Assembly (NCBI GenBank): GCA_018829185.1 | Contig: JAHJUI010000016.1 | Location: 1-34,336, forward strand | Length of the DNA: 34,336 bases | Direction: 5' to 3' | DNA from: Nanobdellota archaeon | GTDB lineage: Archaea > Nanobdellota > Nanobdellia > SCGC-AAA011-G17 > PNOQ01 | Shown: in pieces, positions 23,114 to 34,333 of the stretch | Layout: each line of letters starts with the position of its first letter | Numbering within the stretch: the first letter of the stretch is position 1 | Made by a program: the position numbers and the translations under genes | Notes under the pieces: generated by a model | What the model saw: only the letters and a program-made list of their open reading frames with translations | Told to the model about the DNA's origin: nothing | The model's database searches: none

Positions 23114-24761
23114 CTGAAAATTTCATTACTTTTGTCTCCCTTGTTTTTAAATTTACAACTGGTACTCTTGATGGCTCTGGAGAATGACCTACTTTTTCCT
23201 GGAAATCTGTTTTTGATTGCCAACATGAACAGCAAATAGTTGTAACATGTTTATACTGATCTACATTTACTTTGTGTATGTGTCCAGCAACAAAAAAATC
23301 AGGAACTTTATCTATTATCAAGGGGTCTTCTTCCCTAGTTGGAACAAATAATGTTGATCCATGAGTTGGAGCCAAATGCCTCTTCTGTAATAAATATTTC
23401 ATAATTAATGTAGCTCTATCACTTATGTGTGTTCCACTATTTCTTATACTTTCTACATTTTCTGCATAATAATCAAAACAATACCCGTGATATAATAAAA
23501 CATCAAACCCCTCAAAATTCTTAGAAGAATGAATATTTACTAATGAAGGATTTGTAACCATTGTAACATTTGGTAAATCCCAAACTGATTGACTATATTG
23601 CTTATTCAAAACTGGTTGTGGTTCAGATATTCTTATTGCATCGTGATTACCTGCACAAACTATAATTTTTATGTCCTTTCTAATCATAGAAAGGTATTCT
23701 GCAACTTTATCATATTGCCCATTAATGTCTGTTATTGTTAATTCATCTTCTTGTCCGGGATAAATCCCTATACCATCAACTAAATCACCGACAACAAAAA
23801 GATATTTTACTTTTTGAGCTATTTCTCTTTGTTGAGAATTTCCCGCTTTTCCATTTATCCAATTAATAAATTTTAATAAATCTTTTTCTATAAACATATT
23901 GCTTCCAACATGCAAATCGGAAGTAAAAACAGCATAAACTTCATCTTCACATTTCTTTAATGGTTTATCTGGAGGTAAATCAGGAAAAACAACATTTGAT
24001 ACAAAAACTATTTTATCACCTGTAACCCCTGTGACTCCCAGTACTTCATCTAAAACAATATCTTTTGCAGAATCAAAAATATCTTTCCTATTTTTATTAA
24101 TTAATATCTTTATTTCTCCAGAAATATCTTCTAAAGTAATCATAATGTTTCCATTTTTAGTTGTTCTCTTATCTGTAACCAATCCAATTAAAGAAATATT
24201 CTCTCTATTTGACTTATTCAATGCTCTCCGAATAGAAATTGCTTCTTGTAACTCAACTCTATTTTGTAATATCTTCTTCAAAAAATTATATCTTGCTTGA
24301 TAATGCATAACAAAATCTAGAACTTCTTTTTTTCTATGGGTTTCTTCAAACATTTTTAATATTACTAAAGAAGAACCGTCATTTTCTTCTTGAGCGTCTT
24401 CTGGAGAAATTTCCCCTGGCTCTTTTAAATCATCTAACATTTCATTTAAGATTTTTTTCTTCTCATCAGAGAGATCATACTCCATTAAATCTAAAAAAAC
24501 ATTGTAAGCTCTTTGATCTTTTCCTTTCTCAAGTAAAAATTTAGCATTTTCAAACTCTTTCCAATTAATTTCTACTTCTTTTTTATTACTAATTAAAAAA
24601 TTAAGTAAATCTTGATTAATCACCATTGGTTTTTCATCTTTAAAGAAATTTTCAAGCTTAGAAAACGTTTCATCATCAAGGTTCTTCAATTTATCTAAAG
24701 CATCTGGGCTAATTAAAAACCCTTTTTCCATCATCCTAGAAATAATTTCTTCTCCGCTCAT
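23103..24761 (-). CDS. polB: DNA polymerase D small subunit DP1 (3'-5' exonuclease)
   Basis: A 552-residue proofreading subunit of PolD. An N-terminal helical domain (about 1-100) precedes an OB-fold (about 190-260, ISLIGLVTDKRTTKNGNIMI) and the calcineurin-like phosphoesterase domain with all metal motifs: SDLHVGS (about 280), VVGDLVDGIG (about 325), AGNHDAIR (about 373), YHGYCFD (about 423) and AGHIHKVNV (about 492). In PolD this domain is an Mre11-like 3'-5' exonuclease. It overlaps cdc6 upstream by 4 bases and DP2 downstream by 11, so subunit dosage is likely set by coupled translation. Confidence 0.97.
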   Translation of the reverse strand: MSGEEIISRMMEKGFLISPDALDKLKNLDDETFSKLENFFKDEKPMVINQDLLNFLISNKKEVEINWKEFENAKFLLEKGKDQRAYNVFLDLMEYDLSDEKKKILNEMLDDLKEPGEISPEDAQEENDGSSLVILKMFEETHRKKEVLDFVMHYQARYNFLKKILQNRVELQEAISIRRALNKSNRENISLIGLVTDKRTTKNGNIMITLEDISGEIKILINKNRKDIFDSAKDIVLDEVLGVTGVTGDKIVFVSNVVFPDLPPDKPLKKCEDEVYAVFTSDLHVGSNMFIEKDLLKFINWINGKAGNSQQREIAQKVKYLFVVGDLVDGIGIYPGQEDELTITDINGQYDKVAEYLSMIRKDIKIIVCAGNHDAIRISEPQPVLNKQYSQSVWDLPNVTMVTNPSLVNIHSSKNFEGFDVLLYHGYCFDYYAENVESIRNSGTHISDRATLIMKYLLQKRHLAPTHGSTLFVPTREEDPLIIDKVPDFFVAGHIHKVNVDQYKHVTTICCSCWQSKTDFQEKVGHSPEPSRVPVVNLKTRETKVMKFSDES

Positions 24762-25963
24762 AATCCTAAGCCATCTTTCAATACCTGTGATAAACTAGGC
24801 ATTGTCGACGATGGAATGGCCAATTTAATTTCTCTAGTTCTACCATATCTCCCCTTACTAATTACCCTCGCATTAATAATCCCCAACATGTCTAACTCTG
24901 CAATAATATCTGATACTCTTCTTTGTGTTAATGGTCTCAATCCAGATTTAATACAAATATCTTTGTAAACTTCATAAACATCTCCAGTAAATAATTTTTC
25001 ATTTTTCTTTAATGTAGAAAAAATAGCTAACAAAGTAACTTGAAATTGTTTTGGTTGAGTGTGCACAATGTCCAAAACCCTATCTTTCTCTATTTTCTCT
25101 TCTGCCTCATCAATGTGATCTATATCTAATTTAGTTTTATTCTTTCTTTCAGCCAATTCACCTGCTACCCTCAATAATTCTAATGCTCTTCTAGCATCCC
25201 CATGTTCTCTCGCAGCATAAGCAGCACATTTTTCAATAACCCCTTCCCCAACTGTTTCTTTTCTAAACGCCCTTTTTGATCTCTCCCTTAAAATATCTTG
25301 AAGTTGAATTGCATTATAAGGTGGAAAAACTAATTCCTCTTCACTCAAAGAACTTTTAACTCTTGGATCAATATTATCTGTAAACATTAAATCATTAGAT
25401 ATCCCAACAATTGTTATGTTTGCATTTTTCAATTCTGTATTTAACCTAGTTAAGTTGTACAAAAGTTCATCTCCTGCTTTCTTAATTAATTGATCTATTT
25501 CATCTAAAACAATAATTACTATTCTTTCTTCTTTATCTAAAATTTCTAAAAATTTCCTATAAACTTCATCTGTAGGCAATCCAGTAGAAGGTATATTCTC
25601 CCCTAACTCTCTCGCAAGTTGGGCAATCATCCTATATTCTGTATCTGCAACTCTCCTTAACTTACAATTCAAATAAAAAATCTTTAAAGGTATTTTCTTT
25701 CTCTCAGAAATTTCATTTAAGTTATTAATTACATGTTTAACCGATAATGTCTTACCTGTACCAGTTTTCCCATAAAGGAATAAATTAGATGGTTTTTCAT
25801 TTCTTAAAGCAGGTGCTAATATACTCGAAATAGTTTGTATAAGTTCTTCCCTATGCGGGATAGTCTCAGGTGTATAATTTGCTTGTAAAACTTTCTTATC
25901 TACAAATAATGGCTCTTTTTTTAAATAATCGTCAAAGAATGAATTTGAATTATTTTTTATCAT
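24758..25963 (-). CDS. cdc6: Orc1/Cdc6 replication initiator
   Basis: A 401-residue initiator. The AAA+ module has Walker A LFLYGKTGTGKTL (about 62-75), Walker B IVIIVLDEIDQL (about 148), sensor 1 TIVGISNDL and sensor 2 in GDARRALELLRVAGE (about 253). The C-terminal winged helix (about 305-395) contains the recognition region LTQRRVSDIIAELDMLGI and the beta-hairpin KGRYGRTREIKL. Orc1/Cdc6 binds origin recognition boxes and loads MCM. It starts the operon followed by DP1 and DP2 and faces a 611-nt AT-rich gene-free stretch, the usual location of an archaeal origin. The TATA-like GTTTAAATAA (complement of about 25989-25998) is about 30 nt before the ATG. Confidence 0.96.
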   Translation of the reverse strand: MIKNNSNSFFDDYLKKEPLFVDKKVLQANYTPETIPHREELIQTISSILAPALRNEKPSNLFLYGKTGTGKTLSVKHVINNLNEISERKKIPLKIFYLNCKLRRVADTEYRMIAQLARELGENIPSTGLPTDEVYRKFLEILDKEERIVIIVLDEIDQLIKKAGDELLYNLTRLNTELKNANITIVGISNDLMFTDNIDPRVKSSLSEEELVFPPYNAIQLQDILRERSKRAFRKETVGEGVIEKCAAYAAREHGDARRALELLRVAGELAERKNKTKLDIDHIDEAEEKIEKDRVLDIVHTQPKQFQVTLLAIFSTLKKNEKLFTGDVYEVYKDICIKSGLRPLTQRRVSDIIAELDMLGIINARVISKGRYGRTREIKLAIPSSTMPSLSQVLKDGLGL

Positions 25964-26121
25964 TTTAAGAATTTCAAAAGGAATTTTTTATTTAAACATT
26001 ATTGAGTTATAAAATACACTCCCAGACCTCTATTTCCTATGGAATCCTTTTTGTATGTTTCAAATGCAAAATTCTGAACTTACAGCCCTTGACTGCAGAT
26101 AGAAATGAACTTAATTTTTTA

Positions 26122-26156
26122 TGTTATATATATAATATAATATATAATATATAACA
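26122..26156. repeat. AT-rich inverted repeat, likely DNA unwinding element
   Basis: Arms TGTTATATAT (26122-26131) and ATATATAACA (26147-26156) flank a 15-base spacer of A and T only. It is the most easily melted stretch of the intergenic region beside cdc6 and is consistent with a DNA unwinding element of an origin. Confidence 0.6.
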
Positions 26157-26214
26157 ATAAAACTTAAAATACAAATCCCAAAAACAAAAAACAAAAACCA
26201 AGGATTCTTCAATT

Positions 26215-26232
26215 TTAGGGCTTCTACCCTAA
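26215..26232. promoter_or_regulatory. Short inverted repeat TTAGGG-N6-CCCTAA in the candidate origin
   Basis: Perfect 6-bp arms TTAGGG and CCCTAA around CTTCTA. In such an AT-rich stretch a GC-containing dyad is notable. It could be an initiator site, a protein-binding operator or a hairpin at the end of a short transcript; the sequence alone does not decide. Confidence 0.4.
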
Positions 26233-26574
26233 GATTTCAAAACAGGGTATTTTCAAGCAAATTGCCCATTTTTCGCTAAAGAAAGATAACAAATTTTCAT
26301 GAATTTTAAACTTTAGAAATATCTGGATTTAAAGTTCCTAACGCTCCAAACGCAATAATTTGAAAAATTCAAATCTCCAAAAGAAACCAAGGTGTGAGGG
26401 TCCAAGAAATATAGATATTAGAGAAAAACAAATTTCCTCAAAACTTAAAAGTTTTTCCTAAAATTTAAAGAGAACCTCTTAACTTTTAACAACCATCTTA
26501 GATAATCTCTATTTTTTCTCAGAAAACTTTATAAAGAAGTGTTCACTCTCTAAACTATCTTGGAGGCGTTAAAT

Positions 26575-26838
26575 ATGGCTAATGAAGATAAAAAATATTC
26601 CAAACAACTTATAGGAAAAACAGTTGTTACTAAAACAGGAAAGAAATTCGGAGAAGTTGGAAGTTTAGTATTTGAAACAAGAACAGGTGAGTTACTTCAA
26701 ATCATGCTTAGAAATCAAACTGCTTTTACAGAAGGTTTAGATTTAGAATCAGACAACCAAGGAAATTCCTTAGTTCCCTTCAGCGCAGTAATTGCAATTG
26801 GAGATTTTGTTGTTGTTTCTGAAGAAGACATAATCTAA
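26575..26838 (+). CDS. PRC-barrel domain protein (possible CdpB-like)
   Basis: An 87-residue protein. The ATG at 26575 is preceded at 26562-26566 by GGAGG with 8 bases of spacing, so the TTG at 26560 inside that ribosome site is not the start. The single PRC-barrel runs QLIGKTVVTKTGKKFGEVGS, LVFETRTGELLQIMLRN, then SLVPFSAVIAIGDFVVVS; VPFSAV-x-x-IGDFVVV is the classic closing strand pair. Like the gene at 9638 it is a stand-alone barrel of the size of euryarchaeal division factors CdpB1/CdpB2. TATA-like TTTATAAA lies at about 26528-26535, giving a leader of roughly 20 nt with the ribosome site. It sits between the candidate origin and lonB. Confidence 0.85.
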   Translation: MANEDKKYSKQLIGKTVVTKTGKKFGEVGSLVFETRTGELLQIMLRNQTAFTEGLDLESDNQGNSLVPFSAVIAIGDFVVVSEEDII

Positions 26839-30482: not shown

Positions 30483-30887
30483 ATGCCAATTGTAGGATTT
30501 AACTTTGATAAAATATCAGTTGAAAAAACAGGAAAAATAGCAGGAAAGCTAAACATAAAGCAAAGTACTGGAATTAAAACTGTAGAACAAGAAAAATTAT
30601 TATTAGGTACCCCAGAAGAAGTTCTTAAATTTGGATTTGAATATAAAATAGATTATGGTGGAATAGGAGAAATCAACCTATTGGGACATGTTCTTTTCTT
30701 AGATGAGCCAAAGAAGATAAAGGCAATTCTAGATCAATGGAAGAAGAATAAAAACATAGAAAGAGTAATTATGGAACAGGTAGTTAATGCAATCTTGTAC
30801 AAATGTACTATTAAGTCATTAAACTTGGCTCAAGAGGTAAACTTACCACCACCAATTAAACTACCTATGGTCGAATCTAAAAAATAG
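30483..30887 (+). CDS. Conserved archaeal protein of unknown function
   Basis: A 134-residue soluble protein. It is alternating strand-rich at the N-terminus (MPIVGFNFDKISVEKTGKIA), with a central FGFEYKIDYGGIGEINLLGH followed by VLFLDEPKKIKAILDQWKK, a helix (IERVIMEQVVNAILYKCTIK) and a Pro-rich tail (EVNLPPPIKLPMVESKK). The beta-beta-beta then long-helix order with tail is loosely like a SecB-type chaperone fold, which I offer only as a weak possibility. I believe proteins beginning MPIxGFNFDKI recur in DPANN archaea, but no function is known to me. It has its own strong promoter and ribosome site and ends directly against a convergent small gene. Confidence 0.75.
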   Translation: MPIVGFNFDKISVEKTGKIAGKLNIKQSTGIKTVEQEKLLLGTPEEVLKFGFEYKIDYGGIGEINLLGHVLFLDEPKKIKAILDQWKKNKNIERVIMEQVVNAILYKCTIKSLNLAQEVNLPPPIKLPMVESKK

Positions 30888-31214: not shown

Positions 31215-31478
31215 ATGGTTAGACTATCAGATAAGACAACAACCCTTCTAAAAAACGATATTCTAGCTATTTTATATGAATCTTCTTTGAAACCAATGTA
31301 TACTTCCCATATTGCCGAGGAGTTAAGAAGAGACAACGAGTTCGTTCTTAAGTTATTATTAGAATTAAAAAAAGAGAGATTAGTGAAGGAAGTTACTAAA
31401 GGAAAGCGAGGAGAATATCTTGCTAGGAAAAAATGGATAATTCCTTTAGAAGCTAGACAAAGGATGGACGTTATATAA
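31215..31478 (+). CDS. Small winged-helix DNA-binding protein
   Basis: An 87-residue protein that is a single winged helix-turn-helix. KNDILAILYESSLKPMYTSH is the first helix and turn, IAEELRRDNEFVLKLLLELK the recognition helix region, and KKERLVKEVTKGKRGEYLAR the wing, with basic residues. It resembles small MarR/ArsR-like archaeal regulators. TATA-like CCTTAAATAG at about 31182-31191 lies 28 nt before the ATG, consistent with a leaderless transcript. It is followed at once by the iteron-bearing spacer before the next regulator gene, so it might act on those repeats; that is speculation. Confidence 0.7.
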   Translation: MVRLSDKTTTLLKNDILAILYESSLKPMYTSHIAEELRRDNEFVLKLLLELKKERLVKEVTKGKRGEYLARKKWIIPLEARQRMDVI

Positions 31479-31480
31479 CT

Positions 31481-31542
31481 ATTCACTCATTCACGCACAT
31501 CCTAAACACATCCTATGCACTTATTCACTCGGCTACGCACAC
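31481..31542 (+). repeat. Direct repeats (iterons) upstream of the coiled-coil/wHTH gene
   Basis: The unit TATTCACTC-N4-ACGCACA occurs twice, at 31481-31500 and 31523-31542, starts 42 bases apart (four helical turns). Between them ACATCCTA occurs twice (31498-31505 and 31509-31516). The array lies immediately upstream of a TATA-like CTATTTAAAC (31548-31557), about 27 nt before the ATG at 31582. The position is that of a regulator-binding site controlling that gene. The TATTCACTC part recurs inside the gene at 31813-31821. Confidence 0.75.
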
Positions 31543-31581
31543 AAAACTATTTAAACTTTTATTAACCCCCCCCACTAAATA

Positions 31582-32199
31582 ATGGTTGAAGACCCCATAT
31601 TTAAGGAAATAGTACGTAATTCTTTTAAGAAAGCACGAGATCACATGAATTCCCTAGAGACTCAAATAAAGGCCCAGAAAGCCGAAATTCAAGCTATTAA
31701 AACCCTTTTAGAACAGATTAAAGGACAAAGGATACCCAATTCTACAGAATTCTTACAAGAAGAGCCTTCTAAGCTAGAAATCCAAAAAAGTTCCATAGGA
31801 AATGAAGGGGTCTATTCACTCACTCACTCGGTCACTCACTCACTCACTAAGCACATAAACAACCTAAATAACCTAGAAAAAACCTTGAAAAGGGCCTTCT
31901 CAAGGCTCACAAGGCAAGAATTCTTAGTTTTCCTCACAATATATCAATTAGAGGACGAAATAAGCGAGGTTACCCACTCTCACTTAGCACAAAAACTCAA
32001 ACTTACCGAGGGCTGCATTAGAAGTTATGTAAGTAGCATAATCCGTAAAGGATTACCTCTCACTAGACAGAAAATCAACAATAAACTAACTATTTTACGC
32101 ATATCTACTGAATTTAGGGCCATGAACCTTAAACAAACTCTCACTAACATGTTTTATGACATAGATCCTAACCAAACAAACTTACTTGATAATACTTAA
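31582..32199 (+). CDS. Coiled-coil plus winged-helix DNA-binding protein (plus-strand member of a pair)
   Basis: A 205-residue protein. An N-terminal coiled coil (about 12-50, MNSLETQIKAQKAEIQAIKT) leads to a linker (about 51-98) and a C-terminal winged helix (about 100-178): LTRQEFLVFLTIYQLEDEI, HSHLAQKLKLTEGCIRSYVS as the helix-turn-helix, and a wing (RQKINNKLTILRIS). The linker includes VYSLTHSVTHSLTKH, encoded by a dense CACT repeat (31813-31856) that shares TATTCACTC and GCACA with the upstream iterons. The gene at 32289 on the opposite strand has the same architecture but a different motif. A run of eight C (31566-31573) lies between TATA box and ATG. It is probably a dimeric DNA-binding protein; its target is inferred to be its own repeats. 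Confidence 0.72.
   Translation: MVEDPIFKEIVRNSFKKARDHMNSLETQIKAQKAEIQAIKTLLEQIKGQRIPNSTEFLQEEPSKLEIQKSSIGNEGVYSLTHSVTHSLTKHINNLNNLEKTLKRAFSRLTRQEFLVFLTIYQLEDEISEVTHSHLAQKLKLTEGCIRSYVSSIIRKGLPLTRQKINNKLTILRISTEFRAMNLKQTLTNMFYDIDPNQTNLLDNT
31813..31856 (+). repeat. Intragenic CACT-rich repeat sharing the upstream iteron motif
   Basis: TATTCACTC (31813-31821) is followed by repeated CACTCACT, CGGTCACTCACT and AAGCACATA units to about 31856. The head equals the first nine bases of both upstream iterons, TCACTCGG also occurs in the second iteron, and GCACA matches their end. It encodes residues 78-92, in the linker before the winged helix. The repetition is at the DNA level: coding for it uses CTC and CAC codons otherwise uncommon in this AT-rich genome. 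Confidence 0.7.
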
Positions 32200-32288
32200 T
32201 GAACTCTCACTTTCGATTTTTACAAAAAAGGTCAATTATTAAGAATTAGGCCCCTAGAAGCCCTGTAGCCCCAGAATTCTAATTAAAA

Positions 32289-32924
32289 CTACCCTATATA
32301 ATCTCTCACTGGCACTACTTCAATACCCTCTTCTGAGCTATTCCCCCCCATATTTCCCTCAGAATCAACCCTTCCTTTAACCTTTTTTTGCCCCAATTCC
32401 TCCTTTAACTCATCGTTTAAATAGAATACTTTTGATCTGTTCTTCACACTTATCTTCTCTTTCACTTCTACACCTGCTCTTTTAATATCATTAATATGTC
32501 TCCTTACAGTCACAATACTAGACCCGACTTTATCTGCAATTACTTGATAATTTAATGGATTTTTTGATTGAAGCAACAAAAATACCACCTGTTTTTGACT
32601 CGGAGTAAGATTTTTTATCGTTTGAACGTTCATGAACGATTCTGAATGATTGAACGATTGAACGCGTTCAATCGTTGAACGCCCAACTTTAGATTTTTTA
32701 CCCTTAAGATCAAGCAACATTTGCTCTAATAGGATTAATCTTTCTTCGATTTTAGTTAATCTACCATGATGTTCTTCCTTCTTTGAATGCAAGTGATCAA
32801 TGTGACCCATAGAGTGTTCAAAATCACGTTTTATATTCGAGAAAGAAGACTTTAAACTAGAATGTAATTGGTTTATTTTCTCTTCAGAATCACCTTCTTT
32901 TTTCTTAAACCACAAGAAACCCAT
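32289..32924 (-). CDS. Coiled-coil plus winged-helix DNA-binding protein (minus-strand member of a pair)
   Basis: A 211-residue protein. The N-terminus is MGFLWFKKKEGDSEEK, similar in style to the MGFFDRFK start of the ATPase at 33435. A coiled coil follows at about 14-75 (INQLHSSLKSSFSNIKRDFE, ERLILLEQMLLDLKG), then a linker (76-105) and a winged helix (about 106-172): LTPSQKQVVFLLLQSKNPLN, YQVIADKVGSSIVTVRRHIN as helix-turn-helix, then the wing NRSKVFYLNDEL. A Gly/Ser/Glu tail follows. The linker (residues 81-102) is encoded by a cluster of TGAACG motifs. The same motif forms a palindrome just upstream of the promoter. The upstream neighbour is a broken nucleotidyltransferase whose 3' end overlaps the operator. 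Autoregulation is likely. Confidence 0.74.
   Translation of the reverse strand: MGFLWFKKKEGDSEEKINQLHSSLKSSFSNIKRDFEHSMGHIDHLHSKKEEHHGRLTKIEERLILLEQMLLDLKGKKSKVGRSTIERVQSFNHSESFMNVQTIKNLTPSQKQVVFLLLQSKNPLNYQVIADKVGSSIVTVRRHINDIKRAGVEVKEKISVKNRSKVFYLNDELKEELGQKKVKGRVDSEGNMGGNSSEEGIEVVPVRDYIG
32621..32683. repeat. Intragenic cluster of TGAACG motifs with a 24-bp palindrome
   Basis: Within about 60 bases TGAACG occurs at 32623, 32633, 32651, 32659 and 32676 on the plus strand, and its complement CGTTCA at 32627 and 32665. Bases 32653-32676 are a perfect 24-bp palindrome centred on AACGCGTT with arms AACGATTG and CAATCGTT; TGAACGTTCA (32623-32632) is another. The cluster lies inside the gene at 32289-32924, encoding the linker between its coiled coil and its winged helix. 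Confidence 0.85.
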
Positions 32925-32969
32925 ATCTAATTTTATGAAACTACTTATTATTAAAGTTTTCCATTCAAA

Positions 32970-33001
32970 TTGAACACAGTTGAACGTTCAAACATGTTCA
33001 A
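32970..33001. promoter_or_regulatory. Palindromic operator upstream of the minus-strand wHTH gene
   Basis: A perfect palindrome TTGAACGTTCAA (32980-32991) is flanked symmetrically by TTGAACA (32970-32976) and TGTTCAA (32995-33001), all centred on 32985/32986. This gives a symmetric site with four half-sites of TTGAAC. The minus-strand gene starts at 32924, and a TATA-like CTTTAATAA (complement of about 32948-32957) lies between them, so the site is just upstream of the core promoter. The same half-site recurs in the gene itself at 32621-32683. The site also covers the 3' end of the broken nucleotidyltransferase gene. Confidence 0.8.
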
Positions 33002-33358
33002 ATGAAAGACTAGGATCATAAATTACCTTCCCCATTTCGTGTAGTAAACTAGGTTCTCTTCCTTGTCCATCATCTAAAACAATACCTGTTTCATAATCAC
33101 TTTCATAATAAAATACAATATGGAATCTCCCATTTAATGACTCTAAACGTTTATTGACATCTTGTGGCAGCCCCAACGGAATACCTTCAAGGTCTAAGGG
33201 AAAACACTAGATAAATCATCTAAAATAAAAGCAAGATCTATATCCCTTCCATCACTACAATCTCCATTTAAAACAGAACCATATAGAACTATTTTAGATA
33301 TACTTTCTATTCCCTTTGTCCTCTCTACGGCCAATTCAGCTAATTTATACCTTTCCAT
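32988..33358 (-). pseudogene. Frameshifted minimal nucleotidyltransferase (MNT)
   Basis: Minus-strand reading from ATG 33358 gives a 54-residue start, MERYKLAELAVERTKGIE..., containing the MNT catalytic motif VLYGSVLNGDCSDGRDIDLA (GS then D-x-D), ending at a TAG at 33194-33196. In the adjacent frame the protein resumes as LDLEGIPLGLPQDVNKRLES and continues to 32988 with REPSLLHEMGKVIYD, the typical end of an MNT domain. Reading FP-LDLEG across the junction needs one extra T in the TTCCCTTAG stretch (about 33194-33202). So one base has been lost, either truly or by sequencing error. MNT proteins often pair with HEPN proteins as toxin-antitoxin modules; no HEPN gene is adjacent. Confidence 0.75.
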
Positions 33359-33434: not shown

Positions 33435-34154
33435 TTAGAATTTTCTAAAAGCTTTACTTACATTATCAGACCAGAAACCAGGCAAATCATAACTTAAAAG
33501 CCCTTCAAAATCATCACTCCAAACAAAGAAATATTTCTCTTTAACATCATCATCTTTTAAATCTTTAAAAATCTTAGAAACCCTTTCATACATATCTTTT
33601 ATGCCCTTTCTTTCAAATTTAGTTTGCAATAGCGACGGTTCCTTTAGCAAAACAATATCAGCTAATCTTAAAACATTTAAGTCAATCATAGCAGAGCTCT
33701 GAGCTATTAAAATTAAAGTTAAGTTCTTATGCCTAGCAATAGCCATTATCTTCCCAAGATCTTTACTTGATTTTTTCATTGAATCCCTTGAAGAAAAGAA
33801 TATTGCCCCCTCATCAATTAAAACAGTAGAATTAACAGGAACCTTATCTAGGCTTTCTACTTTCTTTATCCATCTTGGAAGTTTAGAATCTTCATAGCCA
33901 AGAACATAACAGTTCTGGCCAGTTTTATAATGAAATAGCTCTAAAAATCGCATTCCTAACGAACTCTTACCAGAACCCCTTCTACCAGTTAAAAGGACAA
34001 CAGTGCTATGGTTTGTTATTTGATCTAAGAATTTTTCATGAGAACCAACTTCAGATTTCTCTAAATTAAACGCTGTAAAACTTTTCTTTTTACGTTTTTC
34101 TTCTTCTCTTTTTTCAAATATCTTTTGTGGCTTAAACCTGTCAAAAAATCCCAT
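33435..34154 (-). CDS. Zot/FtsK-HerA-like P-loop ATPase
   Basis: A 239-residue cytoplasmic ATPase. A basic N-terminus (MGFFDRFKPQKIFEKREEEK, followed by RKKK) leads to Walker A LLTGRRGSGKSSLGMRF (about 53-69). The Walker B equivalent STVLIDEGAIFFSSRDSM (about 108) is followed by ALTLILIAQSSAMIDLNVLR-like sensor sequence (MAIARHKNLTLILIAQSS, about 140-157). The AIARHKNLTLILIAQ pattern is typical of Zot-like and genome-packaging ATPases of viruses and plasmids and of the FtsK-HerA superfamily. Its true job here is unknown: DNA transfer or packaging in a mobile element, or a host function shared with the neighbouring coiled-coil proteins. TATA-like TTATATAT (complement of about 34176-34183) is 26 nt before the ATG. 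The right inverted repeat begins 14 nt further upstream. Confidence 0.72.
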   Translation of the reverse strand: MGFFDRFKPQKIFEKREEEKRKKKSFTAFNLEKSEVGSHEKFLDQITNHSTVVLLTGRRGSGKSSLGMRFLELFHYKTGQNCYVLGYEDSKLPRWIKKVESLDKVPVNSTVLIDEGAIFFSSRDSMKKSSKDLGKIMAIARHKNLTLILIAQSSAMIDLNVLRLADIVLLKEPSLLQTKFERKGIKDMYERVSKIFKDLKDDDVKEKYFFVWSDDFEGLLSYDLPGFWSDNVSKAFRKF

Positions 34155-34196: not shown

Positions 34197-34333
34197 AAGC
34201 TCTGGTGCAACCCTTAAAAAAGTAATTAAAAATTAATTGCTTTCTATCTAAATTGTAAGCAATTAATTTGCTTATCAATTCCACTTTTTGGGTTGCAAAA
34301 GTTTTGTTTCTCAAAACAGAGCCATATTTTCTT
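34197..34333. repeat. Right copy of 137-bp perfect terminal inverted repeat
   Basis: Exact reverse complement of bases 1-137, with three further bases (TTA) beyond it at the window end. It carries the same nested stems as the left copy. It lies directly upstream of the promoter of the P-loop ATPase, whereas the left copy lies downstream of the pilin gene, so the two copies sit in unrelated gene contexts. Confidence 0.95.

Follow-up and report, generated by a model that had tools for sequence, protein, structure and literature searches.

A putative origin recognition box inside a protein-coding gene: a candidate replicator-control module linked to orc1 in Woesearchaeota/Pacearchaeota-type archaea

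Some iteron plasmids carry a box of the host initiator (a DnaA box) adjoining the iterons, and in Sulfolobus a winged-helix protein, WhiP, is encoded at the archaeal origin oriC3. In plasmids of the pSK41 type (RepA_N) the part of rep that encodes the linker contains the origin, and as a peptide this linker is dispensable (PMC5703833). Archaeal chromosomal origins are bound by Orc1/Cdc6 at origin recognition boxes (ORBs; PMC4010727, PMC4164010), whose common motif is TCCA[CG]T[TG]GAAA[TC][GA]AAGGGGT (PMC4164010). Sulfolobus oriC3 has neither an ORB nor a miniORB (PMC4010727), and Sulfolobus UBP (ucm motif) is a non-Orc1 DNA-binding protein of archaeal origins with hundreds of sites (PMC12141716). 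We found no description of Woesearchaeota/DPANN origins in the open-access literature.

Here we analyse a 34,336-nucleotide stretch of DNA from a Nanobdellota archaeon (referred to as the window), which contains two adjacent genes, A and B. Comparison of sequences across the phylum makes it rather likely that in Woesearchaeota/Pacearchaeota-type archaea this pair forms a replicator-control module linked to oriC, with its cis-element (an ORB plus iteron-like repeats) inside the A coding sequence. The genomes used were assemblies, mostly metagenomic, and 80 loci, none longer than 12 kb, were taken from them. A clean A/B pair was present in 74 (41 convergent and 33 tandem); the family tests span related genomes and are hence non-independent.

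The A/B gene pair and its neighbours

The genes discussed in this section are:

31215..31478, + strand: small winged-helix gene (87 aa), upstream of A
31582..32199, + strand: gene A (205 aa); N-terminal helix 5-48, disordered linker 49-85, winged helix ~86-175
32289..32924, - strand: gene B (211 aa), paralogue of A; helix 7-76, disordered linker 77-101, winged helix ~102-170
33435-34154, - strand: gene of a Zot-like P-loop ATPase (Pfam Zot, 9.6e-5)

Genes A and B converge across a gap of 89 bp. Judged by profile comparison (hhalign probability 98.7%, E 2e-16), they are paralogues with the same layout (long helix, disordered linker, winged helix), which bears out the original prediction of two convergent genes of one architecture. 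The AlphaFold model of A has a pLDDT of 85, with values of ~52 in the linker. A search of the phylum revealed homologues of A in 190 and of B in 97 of 279 genomes, usually as one copy of each, placed side by side where both were found. No match was obtained when viral contigs were scanned with B as the query.

Searches against the sequences of solved structures yielded nothing beyond HTH and coiled-coil matches of a generic kind. A Pfam scan of 53 A proteins returned generic HTH families and weak DnaD_N hits, RepA_N (PF06970) being absent among the 25 families listed. The claim that the family is undescribed is supported, in the form of a family of two paralogues. Protein A has no AAA+ domain and its hhalign comparison with Orc1 gave a probability of 0.3%. 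Its winged helix was considered as a relative of Orc1; it has a fold match to Cdc6 (1fnn, Z 10.3), but MarR-type proteins tie with this match and there is no profile similarity, so this candidate was rejected; by structure and sequence searches the domain is of generic type only.

Homologues of the 87-aa winged-helix protein were present in 57 of the 74 loci, in 33 of them encoded on the same strand 0-600 bp 5' of A, often at less than 115 bp, and this gene is a possible third member of the module. A 134-aa protein (30483-30887, + strand) was also observed in 66/74 loci; in 42 its gene lies no more than 600 bp 5' of A. The original prediction included the adjacent Zot/HerA-like ATPase in the system. 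This part is not upheld: homologues of the ATPase (34-54% identity, except for one weak match) occur in 50 of 261 genomes, normally on a contig other than that of A/B, and outside the window genome the gene shows no linkage to the pair. It was therefore ruled out as a partner of A/B and is, by its distribution, an unrelated accessory gene. An inverted repeat of 18 nt with a 4-nt loop (34230-34269) is located upstream of it. Between B and the ATPase gene (32988-33358, - strand), two short ORFs of 62 and 54 aa resemble a single minimal nucleotidyltransferase gene that has been interrupted, the second ORF corresponding to the N-terminus of such an enzyme.

Motifs in the linker codons and promoters

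The cis-elements identified at the A/B locus are:

31479-31499 (CTATTCACTCA..) and 31522-31541 (TATTCACTC..), + strand: copies of the A motif 5' of A (p=0.017)
31791..31811, + strand: ORB TTCCATAGGAAATGAAGGGGT within the A linker codons (peptide SSIGNEGV), a predicted Orc1/Cdc6 site
31812..31856, + strand: iteron-like TCAC/CTCACT repeats in the A linker codons directly after the ORB (peptide YSLTHSVTHSLTKH)
32202..32213, + strand: element AACTCTCACTTT just 3' of the A stop codon, with a second partial copy at 32301-32310
32620..32684, - strand: GTTCAA/TTGAAC repeats in the B linker codons, occurring in each of the three reading frames
32970..33001, - strand: palindromic GTTCAA sites 5' of B, just upstream of the TATA-like AACTTTAATAATAAG, including a 13-mer common to the B linker

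The first half of the A linker repeat region, which encodes SS[IT]GN[EK]GV (from TTCCAYWGGAAATRAAGGGGT), fits the published ORB. The copy in the window differs from it by 2 mismatches, and many homologues show a better fit. When up to 3 mismatches were allowed, the published motif was found on the sense strand of 65 of the 74 A genes (10 of them exact), and was absent from the antisense strand of all 74 A genes, from all 74 B genes and from the 351 other ORFs of comparable length that were examined. The PWM used in a further scan had been trained on A sites; therefore, these counts rest on the published motif. A normally contains a single coding ORB in gene sense, and three loci (L122, L125 and L133) have a second one in the A promoter. 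The box is read in one frame in 66 genes and in another in 8 (giving VPQEIKGS and similar peptides), and its mean number of mismatches is 1.97, compared with 5.06 for synonymous recodings (the observed sequence is better in 63/74 A genes). The use of two reading frames, together with the excess over synonymous recodings, indicates that the ORB is conserved at the DNA level. Judged by sequence, selection is on the ORB/linker DNA, not on the peptide.

In the 827-kb host genome the window ORB is the sole match at up to 3 mismatches. The exact pattern gave 40 matches in 61 whole relatives (a control pattern gave 0), and those that could be placed from the fetched loci were within A or its promoter. 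When 84,980 species were scanned for the common ORB, all 80 records listed were archaeal; in these records ~33 loci within the phylum fall inside A ORFs, no A-like ORF with an ORB appears outside the phylum, and in other archaea the ORBs lie mostly in intergenic DNA, in many cases 80-400 bp away from orc1.

The repeats directly 3' of the ORB in the A linkers are lineage-specific. The linkers contain many more repeated 8-mers than their synonymous recodings (767 vs 131 and 718 vs 163), an approximately fivefold internal repetition that concerns A of all genomes and B of the convergent ones; the B linkers of tandem genomes show no such excess. In the tandem loci (L062-L138) a dense palindromic array is present just 5' of B, between A and B (e.g. 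GTCTACGACRTGTCTAYAGAC and ACCGAACGTTCGGT).

The original prediction also held that each gene carries a private motif at its promoter and in its linker, and that the motifs of A and B are mutually orthogonal. In the window, the longest word shared by the A upstream region and the A linker is the 11-mer CTATTCACTCA (p=0.017, dinucleotide shuffles), B shares the 13-mer GTTTGAACGTTCA (p=0.0005), and the upstream region of each gene shares with the linker of its partner 7-mers at most, which is the length expected by chance; the parallel layout is therefore real. The family-wide scan proposed with that prediction revealed enrichment in the 74 pairs: linker bases under 8-mers common to the gene's own upstream region numbered 2001 in A against 904 expected from synonymous recodings, and 1770 in B against 735. 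This excess over recoded versions of the same peptides is approximately twofold in both families, and is individually significant in 38 of the 74 A genes (p<=0.05) and in 27 of the 41 convergent B genes. In both directions, sharing with the promoter of the partner was near background (ratios 0.90-1.25 in the 74 pairs), so the orthogonality is also supported. Across the family, the linker is the position at which 8-mers common to the coding sequence and its own upstream region peak. The motif depends on the lineage, its promoter and linker copies changing together (TCACTCAC, ATCAATCACT, TTATTCACTT, AACAAACCAACA, TTTCGACAGC, CAATCATCAACAATC).

The promoter copy is not universal. For A it is frequent in tandem genomes and for B in convergent ones, being weak elsewhere, and it is missing from a large number of A genes, those of family f54 in particular. 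A shift of the A motif of this family to a position upstream of the small winged-helix gene was considered, but is not clearly supported (9.4 vs 7.8 bases).

It is very improbable that the linker motifs merely reflect a low-complexity peptide or chance, with the DNA matches following from selection on the peptide. The linkers are indeed disordered and repetitive, but the same DNA is read in different frames, and there is a strong excess over synonymous recodings for ORB, repeats and promoter sharing alike.

Another element, [CA]NCTCAYTTTT, has a density of 4.1 per kb over the first 400 nt 3' of A, compared with 0.02 per kb elsewhere (a ~200-fold enrichment, in sense orientation only); the copies in the window are about one base off this consensus. 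The CTCTCAYTTTT element repeated 3' of A may represent an unwinding strand or a terminator.

Linkage to orc1 and the function of the locus

The window also contains, upstream of the A/B pair:

24758..25963, - strand: canonical orc1/cdc6 (TIGR02928, 439 bits)
25964..26575, no strand assigned: candidate oriC, with weak inverted ORBs at 26025 (-) and 26374 (+) around an AT-rich stretch (26122-26155)

The candidate oriC at the orc1 promoter has the classical layout of inverted, albeit weak, ORBs flanking an AT-rich stretch, and both DNA polymerase D subunits adjoin the orc1 region. This intergenic region fits the classical arrangement better than A does, with its normally single coding ORB. Gene A is located 1.7-32.5 kb (median 6.5 kb) from canonical orc1 in all 36 genomes in which both are on the same contig; in 10 further genomes they are on separate, mostly short contigs. 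In 24 outgroup genomes that carry distant homologues, these are in no case linked to orc1 (3 with both on the same contig, at 266-531 kb, and 21 on different contigs), and the fetched outgroup pairs (L136, L137, L139 and L140) contain no ORB. Among sampled members of the order, A is present in 40 of 40 with canonical Orc1. Both canonical Orc1 and A are absent from four genomes of family f10 (G057, G288, G293 and G296), which have only a divergent second Orc1, and from G237. One of the four, G057 (2 contigs, 97% complete), has retained B, whose linker carries GTTCAA-type repeats. Some fragmented genomes (G011, G281, G284, G285 and G295) break the co-occurrence of canonical Orc1 and A, in both directions. 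Judged by gene content and position, the A/B locus resides close to canonical orc1 and is lost together with it. In two single-contig genomes (G226 and G074) GC skew did not clearly mark an origin.

Proximity to an origin, a coiled coil joined to a winged helix, private repeats and, in tandem genomes, dense palindromic arrays between A and B would also suit centromere-type segregation proteins, which would bridge parS-like repeats near oriC through their coiled coils, with Orc1 coupling segregation to replication. We regard this as quite improbable: there is no linked ParA-type partner (the sole nearby ATPase is not conserved with the pair in relatives), an Orc1 box is unexpected in a centromere, and the tested repeats are not spread over the genome.

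The existence of a separate, classical-looking oriC at the orc1 promoter counts against A as a start site, and the A site may therefore not be where replication begins. The linker ORB could instead be a regulatory or titration site of Orc1, comparable to datA, the repeats being plain autoregulatory operators of A and B, and the locus itself no origin. The A box is the strongest ORB of the region yet usually a single one, the B palindromes lie immediately 5' of a TATA-like element, and in the haloarchaeon Haloarcula hispanica oriC2 is restrained by a downstream ORB cluster (PMC4010727), all of which agrees with such a role. However, several genomes (e.g. G074) have no ORB comparable to that of A at orc1, and pure autoregulation leaves unexplained a near-universal linker element whose promoter copies have been lost. 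We therefore consider this explanation unlikely, though less so than a role in segregation.

The presence of an ORB in the A linker, the tie to orc1/oriC and the near universality of the linker element, as opposed to the promoter copy, imply that self-recognition or autoregulation covers at most part of the story; since the promoter copy is limited to certain lineages, simple autoregulation is not the core function. The original prediction thus stands in part, for the family, its private motifs and their enrichment, and not for the neighbouring ATPase, and its proposal that each protein marks its own locus may be recast as a putative origin-type cis-element embedded in a gene.

In the replicator-control module that we favour, Orc1 would occupy the linker ORB, while A, as a coiled-coil oligomer, would bind the adjacent repeats via its winged helix, as well as its own promoter where copies are present. 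B would likewise bind its own, separate repeats. Most likely, both proteins help Orc1 to open the nearby origin or limit its firing, their own expression being tied to the origin, much as with the Rep proteins of iteron plasmids and with RepA_N plasmids, in which rep contains the origin. From sequence, the A site may fire, assist oriC or titrate Orc1. A more far-reaching possibility, about which we are doubtful, is that replication is initiated or licensed at an origin within the A coding sequence; A and B would then form a new class of initiators cooperating with Orc1, and the repeats, drifting with the genes, a replicator code proper to each lineage.

Comparison with known systems

The analysis points to a hitherto undescribed mechanism by which a large group of tiny archaea may build or control the replication origin of the chromosome. 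It names a precise candidate cis-element and two protein families for a large part of the DPANN group, with a predicted position for Orc1, and the ~74 co-varying protein/repeat pairs constitute a natural series. It also places a putative initiator box under DNA-level selection within a chromosomal protein-coding gene. Ori-Finder 2 scans intergenic DNA only (PMC4164010); intergenic-only origin finders of this kind would therefore miss a coding ORB of the A type.

The locus resembles archaeal origins bound by Orc1/Cdc6 (PMC4010727, PMC4164010) in its ORB sequence, including the G-string, and in its position beside orc1/cdc6; the window also has an oriC of classical type, at the orc1 promoter. 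It differs from them in that the strongest ORB is within the coding sequence of another gene, is single, has a fixed orientation and is fused to lineage-specific repeats.

The nearest working analogy is provided by RepA_N plasmids of the pSK41 type, which A resembles in layout only: repeats reside in linker codons (here under DNA-level constraint), and the linker peptide, which those plasmids can do without, is disordered in A. RepA_N initiators are, however, bacterial and plasmid-encoded, and bind Rep boxes through an N-terminal DNA-binding domain, without an Orc1 box. In contrast, A and B are chromosomal, single-copy paralogues with a C-terminal winged helix, and RepA_N was absent among the Pfam families listed.

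Iteron plasmids share with this locus a host initiator box beside direct repeats, as well as promoter copies, and in both cases the protein encoded probably binds the repeats; here the box is that of archaeal Orc1, the element is inside a gene, and binding by A is predicted. As in the case of Sulfolobus WhiP (compared by description only), a winged-helix protein is encoded at an origin, but an ORB is absent at oriC3. Finally, UBP and A/B, also compared by description, would each have their own motif at origins; UBP has hundreds of sites, whereas the motifs of A and B look locus-specific.
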